DNA from: a virus
Strand: one strand, 5' to 3'
IMG/VR virus record: IMGVR_UViG_3300042380_000120
Span: 1-28,557 of that record
DNA: 28,557 bases
A model generated the notes under the pieces. That model saw nothing but the letters and a program-made list of their open reading frames with translations. It made no database searches and was not told the DNA's origin. Position numbers and translations under genes: made by a program. Shown here piece after piece: positions 15,840 through 20,783 of this stretch; position 1 is the stretch's first letter, and every line of letters begins with the position of its first letter.

Positions 15840-16061
15840 GTGGATTACCAAGTCCTTTTCAACCTTGCTGTTACTGCTTCTGCTTTCTTTGGTGGTTGGA
15901 TTCTATCCCGAATATACACAGCTATTGATCGGTTAGATGAAGATGTCAGGGAGCTTCCTTTGAAGTATGTTGCTAAGGATGATTACCGTAGTGACCTGAA
16001 AGAAATCAAAGAACACCTCGCAAGAATTCTTGATAAAATCGATGAGAAGGCTGATAAATGA
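15840..16061 (+). CDS. Single-TM membrane protein of the lysis cassette
   Basis: A 73-residue protein with one N-terminal membrane segment (residues about 5-27, LFNLAVTASAFFGGWILSRIY) and a charged coiled-coil tail with ELPLKYVAKDDYRSDLKEIKE and IDEKADK at the end. This 'ELP..YV.KDDY' form is common next to holin and lysozyme genes in phages and is often labelled holin or spanin-like, without firm proof. GTG 15840 is chosen for the AAGGAG (15828-15833) 6 nt upstream; an open frame extends back to 15714 but lies inside the previous gene. The stop overlaps the holin ATG. Confidence 0.7.
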   Translation: MDYQVLFNLAVTASAFFGGWILSRIYTAIDRLDEDVRELPLKYVAKDDYRSDLKEIKEHLARILDKIDEKADK

Positions 16062-16528
16062 TTCTAGAGTCAACCATTGGTGGGATTGTCGGAGGCTTGT
16101 TCAGGATACTCCCTGAAGGTCTCAAGCTGCTTGATAGGAAGAACGAACGCAATCATGAACTAGCCATGCTTGAGGTAGAGTTTAGGTTTGCTCAGGCTAG
16201 GGCAGAACATGAGATGCGGAGGATCGATGCCAGCATGACCTTGGCTGAGATGGACGCTATAGGTAATGCCATCAAAGAGCAGGGACAGACAGCAAGGTCA
16301 GCAGGGTGGTTCGTAGCGGCCATGTCGGCCTTGGTAAGGCCCTTGGTGACTTACTGGTTCGTGGTTATGTATTCCCTGGTAAAGATCATCTCTATGCAGA
16401 TGGCAGTCGCCAGTGGTGCTGATTGGAAAGAAGTAATCATTAGCAATTGGACTATGGATGATATGTCCATGTTGACAATGGTGCTTACTTTCTGGTTTGT
16501 AGGACGAGTATACGAACGCACCAAATGA
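16058..16528 (+). CDS. Holin, GTA 3-TM type
   Basis: A 156-residue protein. A hydrophobic N-terminal helix (residues 5-18, STIGGIVGGLFRIL) is followed by a long amphipathic charged helix (25-80). Two membrane segments then follow, at about 93-118 (VRPLVTYWFVVMYSLVKIISM) and 136-150 (MSMLTMVLTFWFVG). The RPLVTYWFV and FWFVGR signatures match the 3-TM holin family described for gene transfer agent release. It would make membrane lesions that let the cytoplasmic lysozyme reach the wall. It overlaps both neighbours by ATGA. Confidence 0.8.
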   Translation: MILESTIGGIVGGLFRILPEGLKLLDRKNERNHELAMLEVEFRFAQARAEHEMRRIDASMTLAEMDAIGNAIKEQGQTARSAGWFVAAMSALVRPLVTYWFVVMYSLVKIISMQMAVASGADWKEVIISNWTMDDMSMLTMVLTFWFVGRVYERTK

Positions 16529-16974
16529 AACAGGCCCTGAGTAGTGCCGTTGAGTTGGCAAAGCACTTCGAGGGGCTTAGGTTATCTCCTTATCTTTGTC
16601 CCGCTGGTGTTCCCACGCAAGGTTATGGGACAGTGTGGAAACCAGATGGCACCAAGGTCAACTTACACGATCCTGCCATCACTGAAGCCACCGCAGAGCC
16701 TTGGTTAATTACTACCCTTGAAGACATCTGCATCAACCTAGCCAAGGTATCCCCTGTATTGGTAATGAATGAGAATGCTTGGGGAGCCATAGCAGACTTT
16801 GTATATAACCTCGGCATCAGTAGATACAAAAGCAGTACCTTGAAGAAGAGGATTGATAAAGAGGATTTTCAAGGTGCTGGTGTTGAGTTGCTAAGATGGA
16901 ACAGGGCAGGTGGTAGGGTGCTGGCGGGGCTTGTGAGGCGCAGGCAAGCAGAAAGGGAACTGATGCTGCAATGA
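16525..16974 (+). CDS. Endolysin, GH24 lysozyme with Cys-type active site
   Basis: A 149-residue lysozyme of the T4/P22/lambdoid GH24 family that cleaves the MurNAc-GlcNAc bond of peptidoglycan. The catalytic block HFEGLRLSPYLCPAGVPTQGYGT gives E16, C25 and T31, matching T4 lysozyme E11, D20 and T26 by spacing; here Asp is replaced by Cys, as in phage P1 Lyz. The family core AWGAIADFVYNLG (near 85-97) and C-terminal GLVRRRQAERELM are present. No signal peptide or SAR segment is seen, so export should depend on the upstream holin. It overlaps both neighbours by ATGA. Confidence 0.92.
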   Translation: MKQALSSAVELAKHFEGLRLSPYLCPAGVPTQGYGTVWKPDGTKVNLHDPAITEATAEPWLITTLEDICINLAKVSPVLVMNENAWGAIADFVYNLGISRYKSSTLKKRIDKEDFQGAGVELLRWNRAGGRVLAGLVRRRQAERELMLQ

Positions 16975-17393
16975 CTACAATAGCCTACCGAGATGGTGTT
17001 ATAGCGTTTGATTCTAGGTTGTCAGAAGAAGACCTTATTATTTCTGACACCTATGACAAGAGTTACAAAGAAGATGGTTTGAATATCTTCTTCGCAGGTA
17101 GTGTTGTACTGGTGCCTATGCTGGTGGAGTTTATAGTCAACGGTAGCCAGATAGAGATACCTGGGGAGCTTGAGGCTCTTGTATGGATGGACAATGAACT
17201 ACTGTGGGCTGGTCTGTCTGATGGGTATTACTATAAGTTACCTATCAAACTAGACACCTGCTTTGCCATTGGCTCTGGCAAGCCCCATGCCTACACAGCT
17301 ATGGATATGGGTGCTGATGCGCCATTGGCTGTGAAGATGGCAATGCGCAGGGACAAGAACACAGGCGGTCTTATTAATTCCTTTCGATTGTAG
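16971..17393 (+). CDS. Proteasome-like Ntn-hydrolase (HslV-type peptidase)
   Basis: A 140-residue protein starting MTTIAYRDGVIAFDSR. Removing Met would expose Thr as N-terminal nucleophile, as in HslV and proteasome beta subunits. D14 lines up with the family Asp, and K30 or K33 may supply the active-site Lys. FFAGSVV and FAIGSGKPHAYTAMDMGA-like blocks match the conserved AGS and GSG-AxxA regions. It is shorter than bacterial HslV (about 175 residues), and no ATPase partner is in the window. Comparable short Ntn proteins are known in podoviruses; their substrate is unsettled. It is coupled by ATGA to the lysozyme gene. Virion processing or host protein turnover are options. Confidence 0.8.
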   Translation: MTTIAYRDGVIAFDSRLSEEDLIISDTYDKSYKEDGLNIFFAGSVVLVPMLVEFIVNGSQIEIPGELEALVWMDNELLWAGLSDGYYYKLPIKLDTCFAIGSGKPHAYTAMDMGADAPLAVKMAMRRDKNTGGLINSFRL

Positions 17394-17404
17394 GGGCGCA
17401 ACCA

Positions 17405-18619
17405 ATGCCTTTTGAAGTATCTGGTTTTAATCCATATGGCCTTATAGGCAGCATTGCCAGAAGCGTCTTTGGAGGTATGGGTGGTTATAACCCTCCTATA
17501 TCCCCTTACGGAGACATTGGCGGCCCGCGTGATATTTACAGTGCTTCTAGCCCTTCGTTAGAAACACAGCAAAGCATGAGTGATTACATCCTGAATAACC
17601 CTGACTTGGCTGCTGCCTACACAGGGGGCGGTGGTGTAGACCTTGGTGGGGGATTGATTCTTACCAATAGGGGTTTGTTTGATACTGCTAGAGGTGAGGT
17701 TGTTGGGACACCACCATTGATGCCTGTGAGCACACAACCTACTGGGGGTGGTGGGAGCACTAGCAGCGCATCTACTAGCGCCAGTGAGAGCAGTACACCA
17801 AGTGTAGATACAACTATCGTAGGGGGCGACCCAGACATTATTAGAGGCCCTACAATTAGTGCTGGCGACCTTGGTGGGGCTTCTACAGGGCCTCGACAGG
17901 TTCCAGCTACTGGTAATGAATATGTATATCCTAATGAGAAGATTATTAGCCCTGATGCTGAACTAGTCAGAGTGCACAATAACCCTGACGGGTCTAGTGT
18001 GCTTGTGTATAGCGATGGCGCTGAAGTCTTTAATCCTAATGGTAAGAACCCTGACTTTACTAAGTGGCCTACGACGCCAACACCCGGAGCAGTAGCTGAG
18101 ACACAGCAGCCTACAGACTGGAATAAGGTCATTGATGAATGGTTAATCTTTAATCCTAATGCTACTAAAGAGCAGGCTAGACAGACCGGACAGGCTGCTA
18201 ATGTGCCTGCTGATATTCTCAATACAAGACTAGAAGAAAGATTTCCCTCTAATGCTGGCGGTGCTGAAGGCACAGGTGGCACAGGTGGCACAGGAGGCAC
18301 GGGCGGCACCGGAGGCACAGGTGGCACAGGTGGGACTACAGGCACTGCAACCACCGGAGGCACTACGGGCACAGCGACTACAGGGACTACTGGCACCACT
18401 ACTACAGGTACTACAGGAACAGGAGGCACAGGTGGCGGTACTGGCGGAGGCACTGGTGGTGGCACAGGCACTGGTGTAGGCCCTGGTATTGGTGTGACAA
18501 GTAAAGAAGCTACGCGCACCAGTGATGCCTTGTTCGGTACTGACCTGTTCAGATTCCAGCAGGAATACAGCTTGCTTGGTAACTTGTTGAGCTACAACAA
18601 CAGAGGCTTGTTTCGATGA
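17405..18619 (+). CDS. Gly/Thr-rich repeat protein, probable virion component
   Basis: A 404-residue protein with a Gly/Pro-rich N-terminus (MPFEVSGFNPYGLIG), a Ser/Thr linker, a folded-looking part (about 165-275, containing NEYVYPNEKIISPDAELVRV and an LIFNPNATKEQARQTGQAA helix), a long Thr-Gly-Gly repeat (about 289-358) and a short helical end (FRFQQEYSLLGNLL). AGGGG (17392-17396) precedes the ATG. It sits between the lysis genes and the tail tube and shares a 4-nt overlap with the tube gene. Similar repeat-bearing proteins occur at this place in related phages; role unknown. Confidence 0.65.
   Translation: MPFEVSGFNPYGLIGSIARSVFGGMGGYNPPISPYGDIGGPRDIYSASSPSLETQQSMSDYILNNPDLAAAYTGGGGVDLGGGLILTNRGLFDTARGEVVGTPPLMPVSTQPTGGGGSTSSASTSASESSTPSVDTTIVGGDPDIIRGPTISAGDLGGASTGPRQVPATGNEYVYPNEKIISPDAELVRVHNNPDGSSVLVYSDGAEVFNPNGKNPDFTKWPTTPTPGAVAETQQPTDWNKVIDEWLIFNPNATKEQARQTGQAANVPADILNTRLEERFPSNAGGAEGTGGTGGTGGTGGTGGTGGTGGTTGTATTGGTTGTATTGTTGTTTTGTTGTGGTGGGTGGGTGGGTGTGVGPGIGVTSKEATRTSDALFGTDLFRFQQEYSLLGNLLSYNNRGLFR
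18269..18480 (+). repeat. Imperfect 9-bp tandem repeat encoding Thr-Gly-Gly
   Basis: About 70 codons made from units such as GGCACAGGT, reading TGG, TGT and TGGG variants in the 17405 gene. The opposite strand has a long open frame for the same reason, which is not a gene. Unit length is a multiple of three, so expansions stay in frame. Confidence 0.9.
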
Positions 18620-19263
18620 CTTATTTAGATTTAATCAACAGAGTCCTTATCAGGCTTCGTGAGGCTCAGGTAGCTACCCCTACCGACACCGACTACAGCA
18701 AGTTGGTAGGTTACTTGGTGAATGATGCTAAGAGCATTGTAGAGGCTGCTTGGGACTGGGCTGCTCTCCGCACTACTAAAACTGTTACAGCAGTATCAGG
18801 AACTAACACCTATACCATCACAGGCTCTGGTGGTACTTATAAGTTCCTTGATGCTTATAACTCTACATCTAAGTTCAGACTTCAGTTGTTGTCTCAGAAT
18901 GAGATGAACACAAGGATTAACCTGAACACAGCAGCCACTAGTGCCCCTGAATACTTCAGTCTCAATGGTTTCGATAGCAATGGGGATCAGAACATCATTG
19001 TGTATCCTACCCCTGATGCTACTTACTCCTTGAAGTTTGACATGGTTATCCGGGAGCCTGAGTTGACTGCCAGTGCGCAGGAGACTGCGTTGCCTACTCA
19101 GCCTATCCTGCTTTACGCATGGGCTATGGCAACTAGGGAGCGGGGCGAGACTGGGGGCATGGCGGCTCAGGAGATATTTGGCCTAGCTGATAGAGCCTTG
19201 GCAGACGCTGTGGCCTTAGAAGCCAGTAAGTACCAAGCAGAACTTCTCTGGAGGCCTGTGTAA
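18616..19263 (+). CDS. Tail tubular protein A (T7 gp11-like adaptor)
   Basis: A 215-residue protein that forms the ring linking portal and nozzle in podovirus tails. Family features are the N-terminal helix (YLDLINRVLIRLREAQV), LVGYLVNDAKSIVEAAWDWAALR (about 31-53), a central beta part with NIIVYPTPD, and C-terminal helices (RERGETGGMAAQEIFGLADRAL). Length is close to T7 gp11 (196 residues). It is coupled to its neighbours by ATGA upstream and TAATG downstream and is followed by the nozzle gene, the classic pair. Confidence 0.9.
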   Translation: MTYLDLINRVLIRLREAQVATPTDTDYSKLVGYLVNDAKSIVEAAWDWAALRTTKTVTAVSGTNTYTITGSGGTYKFLDAYNSTSKFRLQLLSQNEMNTRINLNTAATSAPEYFSLNGFDSNGDQNIIVYPTPDATYSLKFDMVIREPELTASAQETALPTQPILLYAWAMATRERGETGGMAAQEIFGLADRALADAVALEASKYQAELLWRPV

Positions 19264-20783
19264 TGGCACAGCCCTTACAGACAATTACCATATCAGCACC
19301 AGGGTTCTTTGGGATCAATACCCAAGACTCCCCTATTGGCTTGAACCCTGCCTTTGCCTCCATAGCTGATAACTGTGTTATTGACCAGTATGGCCGTATA
19401 GGGGCTAGGAAGGGCTATGTTTATGTAACAACTAACTCTAGTCCATTAGGCACCAGTGCTGGAGTAGAGGCCCTACACGAACATATAGAAGCCAACGGTA
19501 CTTCCAAGTTCTTCAGTGGTGGTAATAATAAGATATTCACAGGCACAACATCACTGACTGATGTCACCCCAGCCTCCTACACCATCACTGCTAACAACTG
19601 GAAGATAGTGTCTTTTAATAATGCTGTGTACTTCTTCCAGCATGACTATGAACCTCTGGTGTATCAGGAAAGCACAGGCACTGTCGTCAAGATGTCCAGT
19701 GTCTCTGGAGCCTCTGGTACGCCTCCTGAGGGCAACGAAGGCATTGCAGCCTACGGCAGGCTCTGGGTGGCTAACCTGCCCTCTGACAAGTCTACGGTGT
19801 ACTGGTCAGACTTGCTGCTAGGTTCTAAGTGGAATACAGGCTCTGCTGGCTCTATCAATGTCAGTGAGTACTGGCCTACAGGGTATGATGAGATCGTAGC
19901 TCTAGCGGCCCACAACGGCTTCCTGTATATCTTTGGTAGGAACTCTATCCTCATCTACTCTGGTGCCAATGACCCAGCAACGATGGTGTTGCAGGATGCT
20001 GTCAGCAACATAGGCTGCATAGCCAGAGACTCTGTACAGAACACAGGGGGAGACATCATCTTCCTGAGTGCCCAGGGTGTCATGTCTCTCGGCAGGGTGA
20101 TTCAGGAGAAGTCCACACCTATCAAAGACATTAGTAAGAATGTCAGGACTGATTTGACCTCCCTGGTGCCTCTGGAGACTGGGAACATCAAGTCACTCTA
20201 TAGCCCTGAAGAAGCCTTCTACATCATTACATTTCCTATTAATAATGTTACCTACTGCTTTGACATGAGAGCACCATTGCAGGATGGGTCACACAGGGCT
20301 ACTACTTGGACTGGCATAGAGCCATTGGCTATGGTGCGCCGCAGGAATGGTGTCATCTACTTTGGTCATCCGCTGGGAATTAGTCAGTACATAGGCTACT
20401 TAGACAACAATGCCACCTACTTGATGCGGTACTTCAGTATTCCTTTGGACTTCGGTAATGCTGCCAATCTTAAGTTCCTCAAGACTTTTACCATTACCCT
20501 CATTGGGGGTTCTAATGCACAGACTACTCTCAGTTGGAGTTATGACTATGAATATAACTATCAACAGAGAACATTTTCCTTTGGTGGTGGCGATCTTGCT
20601 GAATATAACGTAGATGAATACAACATAGCTGAGTACACACCAGGTATTCTAATTAGGCGACCTTCTGTTCAAGGTAGTGGGTCAGGGACTGTAGTCACTG
20701 TTGGTGTCCAATCCATCATGAACGGAAGCCTCATTTCTATTCAAAAGATAGACATCCTGGCACTCATTGGGAGACTGATATGA
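19263..20783 (+). CDS. Tail tubular protein B (T7 gp12-like nozzle)
   Basis: A 506-residue beta-rich protein. ISAPGFFGINTQDSPIGL and FASIADNCVIDQYGRIGARKGY at the N-terminus are typical of the gp12 nozzle family, followed by repeated propeller-like segments (WKIVSFNNAVYFFQ, GRLWVANLPSDKSTVYWSD, GFLYIFGRNSILIYSG). It forms the distal tail nozzle that contacts fibres and closes the channel. It is shorter than T7 gp12 (794 residues), which is usual for relatives of this kind. It overlaps the tube A stop by one base and the next gene by four. Confidence 0.9.
   Translation: MAQPLQTITISAPGFFGINTQDSPIGLNPAFASIADNCVIDQYGRIGARKGYVYVTTNSSPLGTSAGVEALHEHIEANGTSKFFSGGNNKIFTGTTSLTDVTPASYTITANNWKIVSFNNAVYFFQHDYEPLVYQESTGTVVKMSSVSGASGTPPEGNEGIAAYGRLWVANLPSDKSTVYWSDLLLGSKWNTGSAGSINVSEYWPTGYDEIVALAAHNGFLYIFGRNSILIYSGANDPATMVLQDAVSNIGCIARDSVQNTGGDIIFLSAQGVMSLGRVIQEKSTPIKDISKNVRTDLTSLVPLETGNIKSLYSPEEAFYIITFPINNVTYCFDMRAPLQDGSHRATTWTGIEPLAMVRRRNGVIYFGHPLGISQYIGYLDNNATYLMRYFSIPLDFGNAANLKFLKTFTITLIGGSNAQTTLSWSYDYEYNYQQRTFSFGGGDLAEYNVDEYNIAEYTPGILIRRPSVQGSGSGTVVTVGVQSIMNGSLISIQKIDILALIGRLI

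Follow-up and report, generated by a model that had tools for sequence, protein, structure and literature searches.

What does a very small proteasome-type gene do in a phage when it sits directly behind the lysozyme gene; does it serve lysis, does it depend on an unfoldase, or does it act on its own? The question is raised by a gene on the plus strand, 16971..17393, of the stretch of DNA analyzed here (the window), a virus contig of 28,557 bases that carries genes for a large terminase, a portal, a weakly matched scaffold, a major head protein and tail proteins, in this order (PHROG).

The gene starts with ATG and encodes 140 amino acids; PHROG, profile and fold matches (below) support it as a real ORF. 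Three genes precede it on the same strand: one for a small protein heading the lysis block, with a GTG start read from the sequence (15840..16061; PHROG 462 lipoprotein, 1e-9 on 15870-16061), one for a membrane protein at the holin position (16058..16528; PHROG 6637, 2e-30, with a weak match to PHROG 3427 holin, 0.001) and, directly upstream, the endolysin (lysozyme) gene (16525..16974; PHROG 7 endolysin, E = 3e-41). Overlaps of 4 bases join the four genes in series, the bases shared by the lysozyme ORF and the ORF under study being ATGA. This overlap, the N-terminus MTTIAYRDGVIAFDSR and the GSGKPHA block had been described in the initial annotation of the locus; all were confirmed in the ORFs of the window. 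On reading the window sequence, we noticed no strong ribosome-binding site near the start codon. An in-frame start upstream was not found in the window, hence there is no N-terminal extension; such a start is absent from 50 of 80 IMG/VR loci of the family and present in the other 30.

The next gene in the 3′ direction (17405..18619, plus strand; ORF call) is Gly/Thr-rich, contains a Gly-Gly-Thr repeat run at 18270-18420 and has no PHROG match at E <= 1; among relatives it varies (46-87% identity over alignable parts). Further downstream, the ORF at 19263-20783 has 'amidase' (lysis, 1e-35) as its best PHROG match, with other matches to virion structural and head closure proteins; the ORF may encode a tail or connector protein that PHROG has misnamed.

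Used alone, the window sequence gave matches too weak to classify the protein: an E of 0.11 in Pfam, an 18-bit match to the archaeal beta subunit of NCBIfam (cut-off, 224) and, with phmmer against PDB, nothing better than 0.66. A profile was needed. In PDB, a profile of 73 sequences matched 205 different sequences (E <= 0.01), PSMB8 being the best (7.5e-18), and the best 60 of the 205 were all proteasome, HslV or BPH. Also, PHROG 1040, 'peptidase HslV family', matched residues 1-139 of the window protein (E = 1e-25). The AlphaFold model (pLDDT 95.6, pTM 0.89) aligned with HslV structures 4g4e and 1g3i at Z of 16.5 (135-136 residues, 2.4-2.5 Å); proteasome beta subunits came within 1 Z of this top match, which makes a tie. 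The proteasome-beta fold with N-terminal Thr is present, residue 2 of the model falling on HslV residue 1 as the first aligned pair. Helix H2 is absent from the model, where a single helix (45-57) lies between strands 37-43 and 67-73, and helices H3 and H4 are short. The term 'HslV-like' Ntn-hydrolase used in the initial annotation is correct as a statement on fold.

Fuchs, Alva and Lupas described a family from phages and prophages, PPH, whose members have ∼140 residues, no H2 and no propeptide; the available part of their text reports no AAA+ partner, no telling genomic context and no function (PMC8665760). The window protein has the features of this family: the profile match, 140 amino acids, no H2 and the equivalents of Thr1, Asp17, Lys33 and Gly47. 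From size, features and phage range, rather than from the authors' alignment, we infer that PHROG 1040 corresponds to PPH. By profile and model, the window gene encodes a proteasome-type enzyme of very small size that belongs to a phage family already in print. The earlier remark that comparable phage genes exist with an open role agrees with this publication, which, in its available part, draws the family from many phages and gives no function (PMC8665760). In the open-licence literature, covered mostly as listings and beginnings of abstracts, we found no experiment on PPH and no function for it; no relevant mention of HslV or a protease was found in the articles on phiCbK (PMC3556154) and PAK_P3 (PMC4933390).

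The predicted nucleophile is Thr2 (codon 16974..16976, plus strand, as are all codons below), which conservation identifies with the N-terminal Thr1 left after Met removal. The profile, conservation and the HslV alignment assign Asp14 (17010..17012) and Lys30 (17058..17060) to Asp17 and Lys33 of the proteasome triad; the profile and conservation assign Gly43 (17097..17099) to the oxyanion-hole Gly47, Ser102 of the GSG block (17274..17276) to Ser129, and Asp128 to Thr131 (17352..17363) to the positions of Asp166 and Ser169. Positions 129, 166 and 169 of the proteasome are ones that we take to have catalytic roles. In the set fetched by tblastn, Thr2 and Lys30 were conserved in 19/19 sequences, Asp14, Gly43, Asp128 and Ser/Thr131 in 18/19 and Ser102 in 17/19; four of the exceptions come from a single sequence (L098:3432), a second, distinct proteasome-like gene. 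In the set fetched by pattern, the counts were 54/54 for Thr2 and Asp14, 53/54 for Lys30, 52/54 for Ser102 and Ser/Thr131, 51/54 for Asp128 and 47/54 for Gly43; as the 80 IMG/VR loci had been scanned with the peptide MTTIAYRD, N-terminal conservation is biased here and the Thr2 and Asp14 counts are affected. The tblastn set (19 sequences from 18 records, without the fetched Medea1 and phiSD1 copies) serves as the control. Conservation and the model thus show the equivalents of Thr1, Asp17, Lys33, Gly47, Ser129, Asp166 and Ser/Thr169 as a predicted classical proteasome active site. Furthermore, the gene is under purifying selection, with pN of 0.014-0.017 versus pS of 0.17-0.21.

In the clade of the window, the PPH gene and its neighbors differ in history. 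The PPH protein is 97% identical to those of loci L002 and L003, but identity to these loci falls to 38-39% for the lysozyme and to 23-24% for the holin-position protein; in L005 the relation is reversed (lysozyme 74%, holin 87%, PPH 62%). The dS of PPH is 0.19-0.25 against L002-L004, whereas three structural genes downstream have dS of 0.75-0.79 in the comparison with L003. The contrasts in identity and in dS therefore indicate a PPH history apart from that of the neighboring genes. At the DNA level, the block of high identity to L002 (94.7%) covers the end of the lysozyme gene and the PPH gene (16945..17394, plus strand), with alignable DNA resuming downstream at 17577. In the comparison with L003 and L004, the block (about 89%) begins at 16860 and extends 110 bases into the lysozyme gene. 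Of 20 other pairs with close PPH genes, six showed an interruption of the DNA match at the start of PPH, at its stop or at both (L023 with L014, L016, L018, L025 and L036; L051 with L060), while 14 were collinear through the gene, three of them being identical contigs; edges of blastn blocks can shrink to conserved coding DNA, and only the window/L003 comparison is backed by dS of other genes. These alignments suggest that PPH was exchanged without the surrounding genes.

Gain or loss of PPH was also considered with the structural gene 19263-20783 as a reference. Among 37 distinct contigs (counted where the structural gene lies >3 kb from the locus start), 34 had no PPH in the stretch; the lysozyme was not found in those 34 either (tblastn, E <= 1e-3), so that PPH is not separable there from the lysis block, and we rejected these contigs as evidence of PPH gain or loss. 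Thus, only L002-L005 separate PPH from the lysis block. As far as the literature was searched, neither the separate exchange nor the terminase bias described below appears in published papers on the family.

We consider it somewhat better than an even bet (a probability of roughly 0.55) that PPH, carried by phages as a late cassette of a single gene, is a threonine peptidase that is self-contained and needs no ATP. Host methionine aminopeptidase would remove Met1, as the following residue suggests, and expose the Thr; Thr1 and the proteasome-type set would then form the predicted active site. A small ring of identical subunits would be the most likely assembly; with H3 and H4 short, such rings may not stack, and a monomer, as in connectase, may be formed instead. 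Since H2 is lost, H3 and H4 are short and the surface for the HslU tail is missing, the protein most likely works without an ATPase, and it would act on peptides or on unfolded or flexible polypeptides. Late expression would come from translational coupling to whichever gene stands in front, here the lysozyme gene, and phages could exchange the one-gene cassette without the lysis and packaging genes that surround it. A cassette of this kind is more likely to have a target met in any infected cell than the neighboring lysozyme; candidates would be a host, defense or stress polypeptide, or a misfolded late protein.

Hundreds of phage records match PPH, a proteasome-type protein of very compact build (tblastn, 397 records at E <= 0.01 and 589 at E <= 10), and its exchange without the neighbors suggests a self-contained function. 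Its presence in the cultured Escherichia coli phage Bas73, which presumably grows on laboratory E. coli K-12, makes the question of function testable. One could speculate further that the freely exchanged gene encodes a counter-defense or takeover enzyme, a ring or a monomer with no ATPase docking site, acting alone on a host or defense polypeptide; we hold this narrower proposal as a tentative one, with the odds against it.

A second reading, possible and in our estimate unlikely, connects the late-gene seat with virion processing or packaging: PPH would cleave one of the late proteins of the phage (the scaffold, the portal, the terminase or a tail protein). What speaks for it is the position relative to packaging and head genes. 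The large terminase lies within 3 kb of PPH in 11/22 non-redundant records, with 3.6 expected (p = 1.6e-4); the test covered 36 records and PHROG 2 only, 26 of them having a match and four being dropped as redundant (before this removal, 13/26 versus 4.1 expected). The records for genome searches were picked mainly for length and represent 36 of 80 loci, or 31 in later searches. PPH is located two genes before the terminase in phiAH14a and Medea1 and after the terminase ORF in CcrSC; in Vibrio phages it is near portal, head or capsid genes, in some of them between the portal and head morphogenesis or head completion genes. The neighbor families include the small and large terminase subunits, portal and head-tail adaptor.

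Scans of neighbors covered 60 of the 80 IMG/VR loci, after removal of redundant ones, and 38/42 host-genome loci (29 of Pseudomonas or Pseudomonadaceae); for the latter, 101/114 downstream and 79/114 upstream ORFs were used, those dropped being mostly on the opposite strand. As ORF calling was greedy by length and each scan took the top 25 families, all counts are rough lower bounds. The PHROG 2 large terminase was the gene directly before PPH in at least 4/60 IMG/VR loci (among 25 of 40 families listed), and a small terminase subunit family was the gene directly after it in at least 5/57 (among 25 of 47 families listed); at host-genome loci, the 101 downstream ORFs included at least 10 small and at least 11 large terminases. 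The terminase bias could point to a role in packaging or head assembly. Against virion processing stand the 20 annotated regions, across which PPH has no constant partner gene, and its exchange without neighbors in several comparisons. Nor is the seat uniform: PPH is found among replication genes in KPP10 (with the endolysin about 3.5 kb off) and among unknown or mixed genes in Rhizobium and Erythrobacter phages and in hairong. PPH favors the late block, sometimes the junction of lysis and packaging genes, with no fixed partner.

A gene matching PHROG 513 'transposase' (L264:5437-6060) lies right after PPH, and PHROG 513 was seen in at least 13/101 scanned neighbors; the genes directly after PPH in L266, L272, L274, L286 and L303 are 70-81% identical to it, and phiAH14a has after PPH a gene of equal length and offset, a likeness by length and offset alone. 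The PHROG 513 gene may encode a true transposase or may serve PPH as a mobility partner.

The initial annotation had placed the peptidase in a coupling with the lysis genes. The late operon position behind holin-like and lysozyme genes stood up to analysis, the functional tie did not; on the present evidence, the link to lysis is one of position. If PPH were a lysis-linked enzyme, it would tune lysis by processing the holin, endolysin or spanin, a role that we find quite improbable. In the window, it lies directly behind the lysozyme gene with the ATGA overlap, and in four near relatives it also follows a lysozyme gene directly (L002, L003 and L005; in L004 judged by the aligned end of the lysozyme gene). 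In the Jersey-like Salmonella phage Ent1, in Bas73 and in phiSD1, PPH is just before a holin-holin-endolysin series; at several host-genome loci, mostly of Pseudomonas, holins were found among the three ORFs upstream of PPH (of 79 upstream ORFs, PHROG 2508 in at least 6, 126 in at least 3, 2359 in at least 2 and 217 in at least 1). The PHROG 7 endolysin taken alone is within 3 kb in 3/7 records versus 1.05 expected (p = 0.06, redundant rows kept).

The overlap itself is automatic: with Thr (ACN) as codon 2 the gene must begin with ATGA, and an upstream frame in that register has to stop there, so that ATGA is not independent evidence of coupling to lysis. An equal overlap with the preceding ORF was seen in 24/60 non-redundant relatives (ORFs called greedily by length). 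The low identity of the lysozyme and holin-position proteins where PPH is nearly identical argues against a shared role. With five further endolysin families added to PHROG 7, an endolysin was within 3 kb in 3/18 records, 2.5 being expected (p = 0.47), i.e. no nearer than chance and with no constant association; this test left out the redundant records G001, G034 and G035 as well as hits in open frames of 2561, 5748 and 3551 amino acids, which are probable virion proteins, and one of the hits retained (G031) is below the Pfam cut-off. The PHROG 7 endolysin was the gene directly before PPH in at least 2/60 IMG/VR loci, L003 and L005, both in the clade of the window, and in Ent1 an annotated terminator separates PPH from the holins. 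As the neighbors differ (portal and head, terminase and replication genes elsewhere) and PPH was exchanged separately, the seat beside lysis genes says little on its role.

Equally doubtful is a viral HslV that borrows host HslU as its unfoldase. The claim that no unfoldase is nearby was borne out: no AAA_2 (HslU/Clp type) domain and no linked hslU were found in the window record, which is probably a fragment, and no AAA_2 domain was found in any of the 52 carrier records (the window, 20 named phages searched whole, and other carriers, of which IMG/VR records may be fragments), with 14/14 control genomes positive. A missing phage unfoldase would suit the use of the host enzyme, as would the top fold match to HslV, even if tied with proteasome beta subunits; HslU was above the cut-off in 33/36 host genomes carrying such genes (36 genomes from 38 loci, L301 left out), while the three genomes with none are all metagenome-assembled and may be incomplete. 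However, the alignment to E. coli HslV leaves residues ∼68-88 (mature numbering) unmatched, i.e. H2 including Ala79 and Lys80, and the HslV pocket positions Phe54 and Phe57 align with Pro49 and Val52 of the window protein. These four HslV residues are discussed, in the available part of PMC6429459, as the pocket or contacts of the HslU tail. The absence of the helix that contacts the HslU C-terminal tail argues against canonical co-option of host HslU, one of the options raised in the initial annotation.

That PPH is a monomeric protein ligase or specific processing enzyme like connectase, and not a ring protease, we consider very improbable: small size and the lack of H2 fit this proposal, as connectase also lacks helices of the first pair (PMC8665760), but the two-helix S3-S4 insertion of connectase has no counterpart in the model, which has short turns among the first strands, and the available text of PMC8665760 describes an affinity of PPH to HslV/BPH within group I.

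Compared with the PPH family as given in the available part of PMC8665760, the window copy shares the length of ∼140 residues, the lack of H2 and propeptide, the catalytic set, the occurrence in tailed phages and the lack of an AAA+ partner; nothing sets it apart, although the paper reports no telling context and we observed the terminase bias and separate exchange. HslV (ClpQ) has the same fold and catalytic residues (Z of 16.5 over 135 residues), but exceeds the window protein in length by about 35 residues, retains H2 and with it the site of HslU contact, and works with HslU. BPH (5ovs/5ovt) is a group I homolog and, like the protein proposed here, a ring protease with no known unfoldase, but it is bacterial and keeps H2 and an acidic pore loop, according to the available text (PMC8665760). 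Phage HslV without HslU was put in print in 2020 for HslV-like ORFs of the Salmonella jumbo phage pSal-SNUABM-04; there, two copies are present in one jumbo phage, and the likeness to PPH is by description in the available part of the article (PMC7823757).

Larger relatives were seen in two phages. Aeromonas phage 2-L372D has tandem proteasome-like genes: L098:3432-3983 encodes 183 amino acids with Thr-Cys after the start, and L098:4001-4885 encodes a PPH-like protein of 294 amino acids whose long extension at the C-terminus is RPC-like; the two may form a system of two subunits. In Vibrio phage 1.193.O, the PPH-like protein of L096:4001-4801 has 266 amino acids and a C-terminal extension as described in print for RPC.
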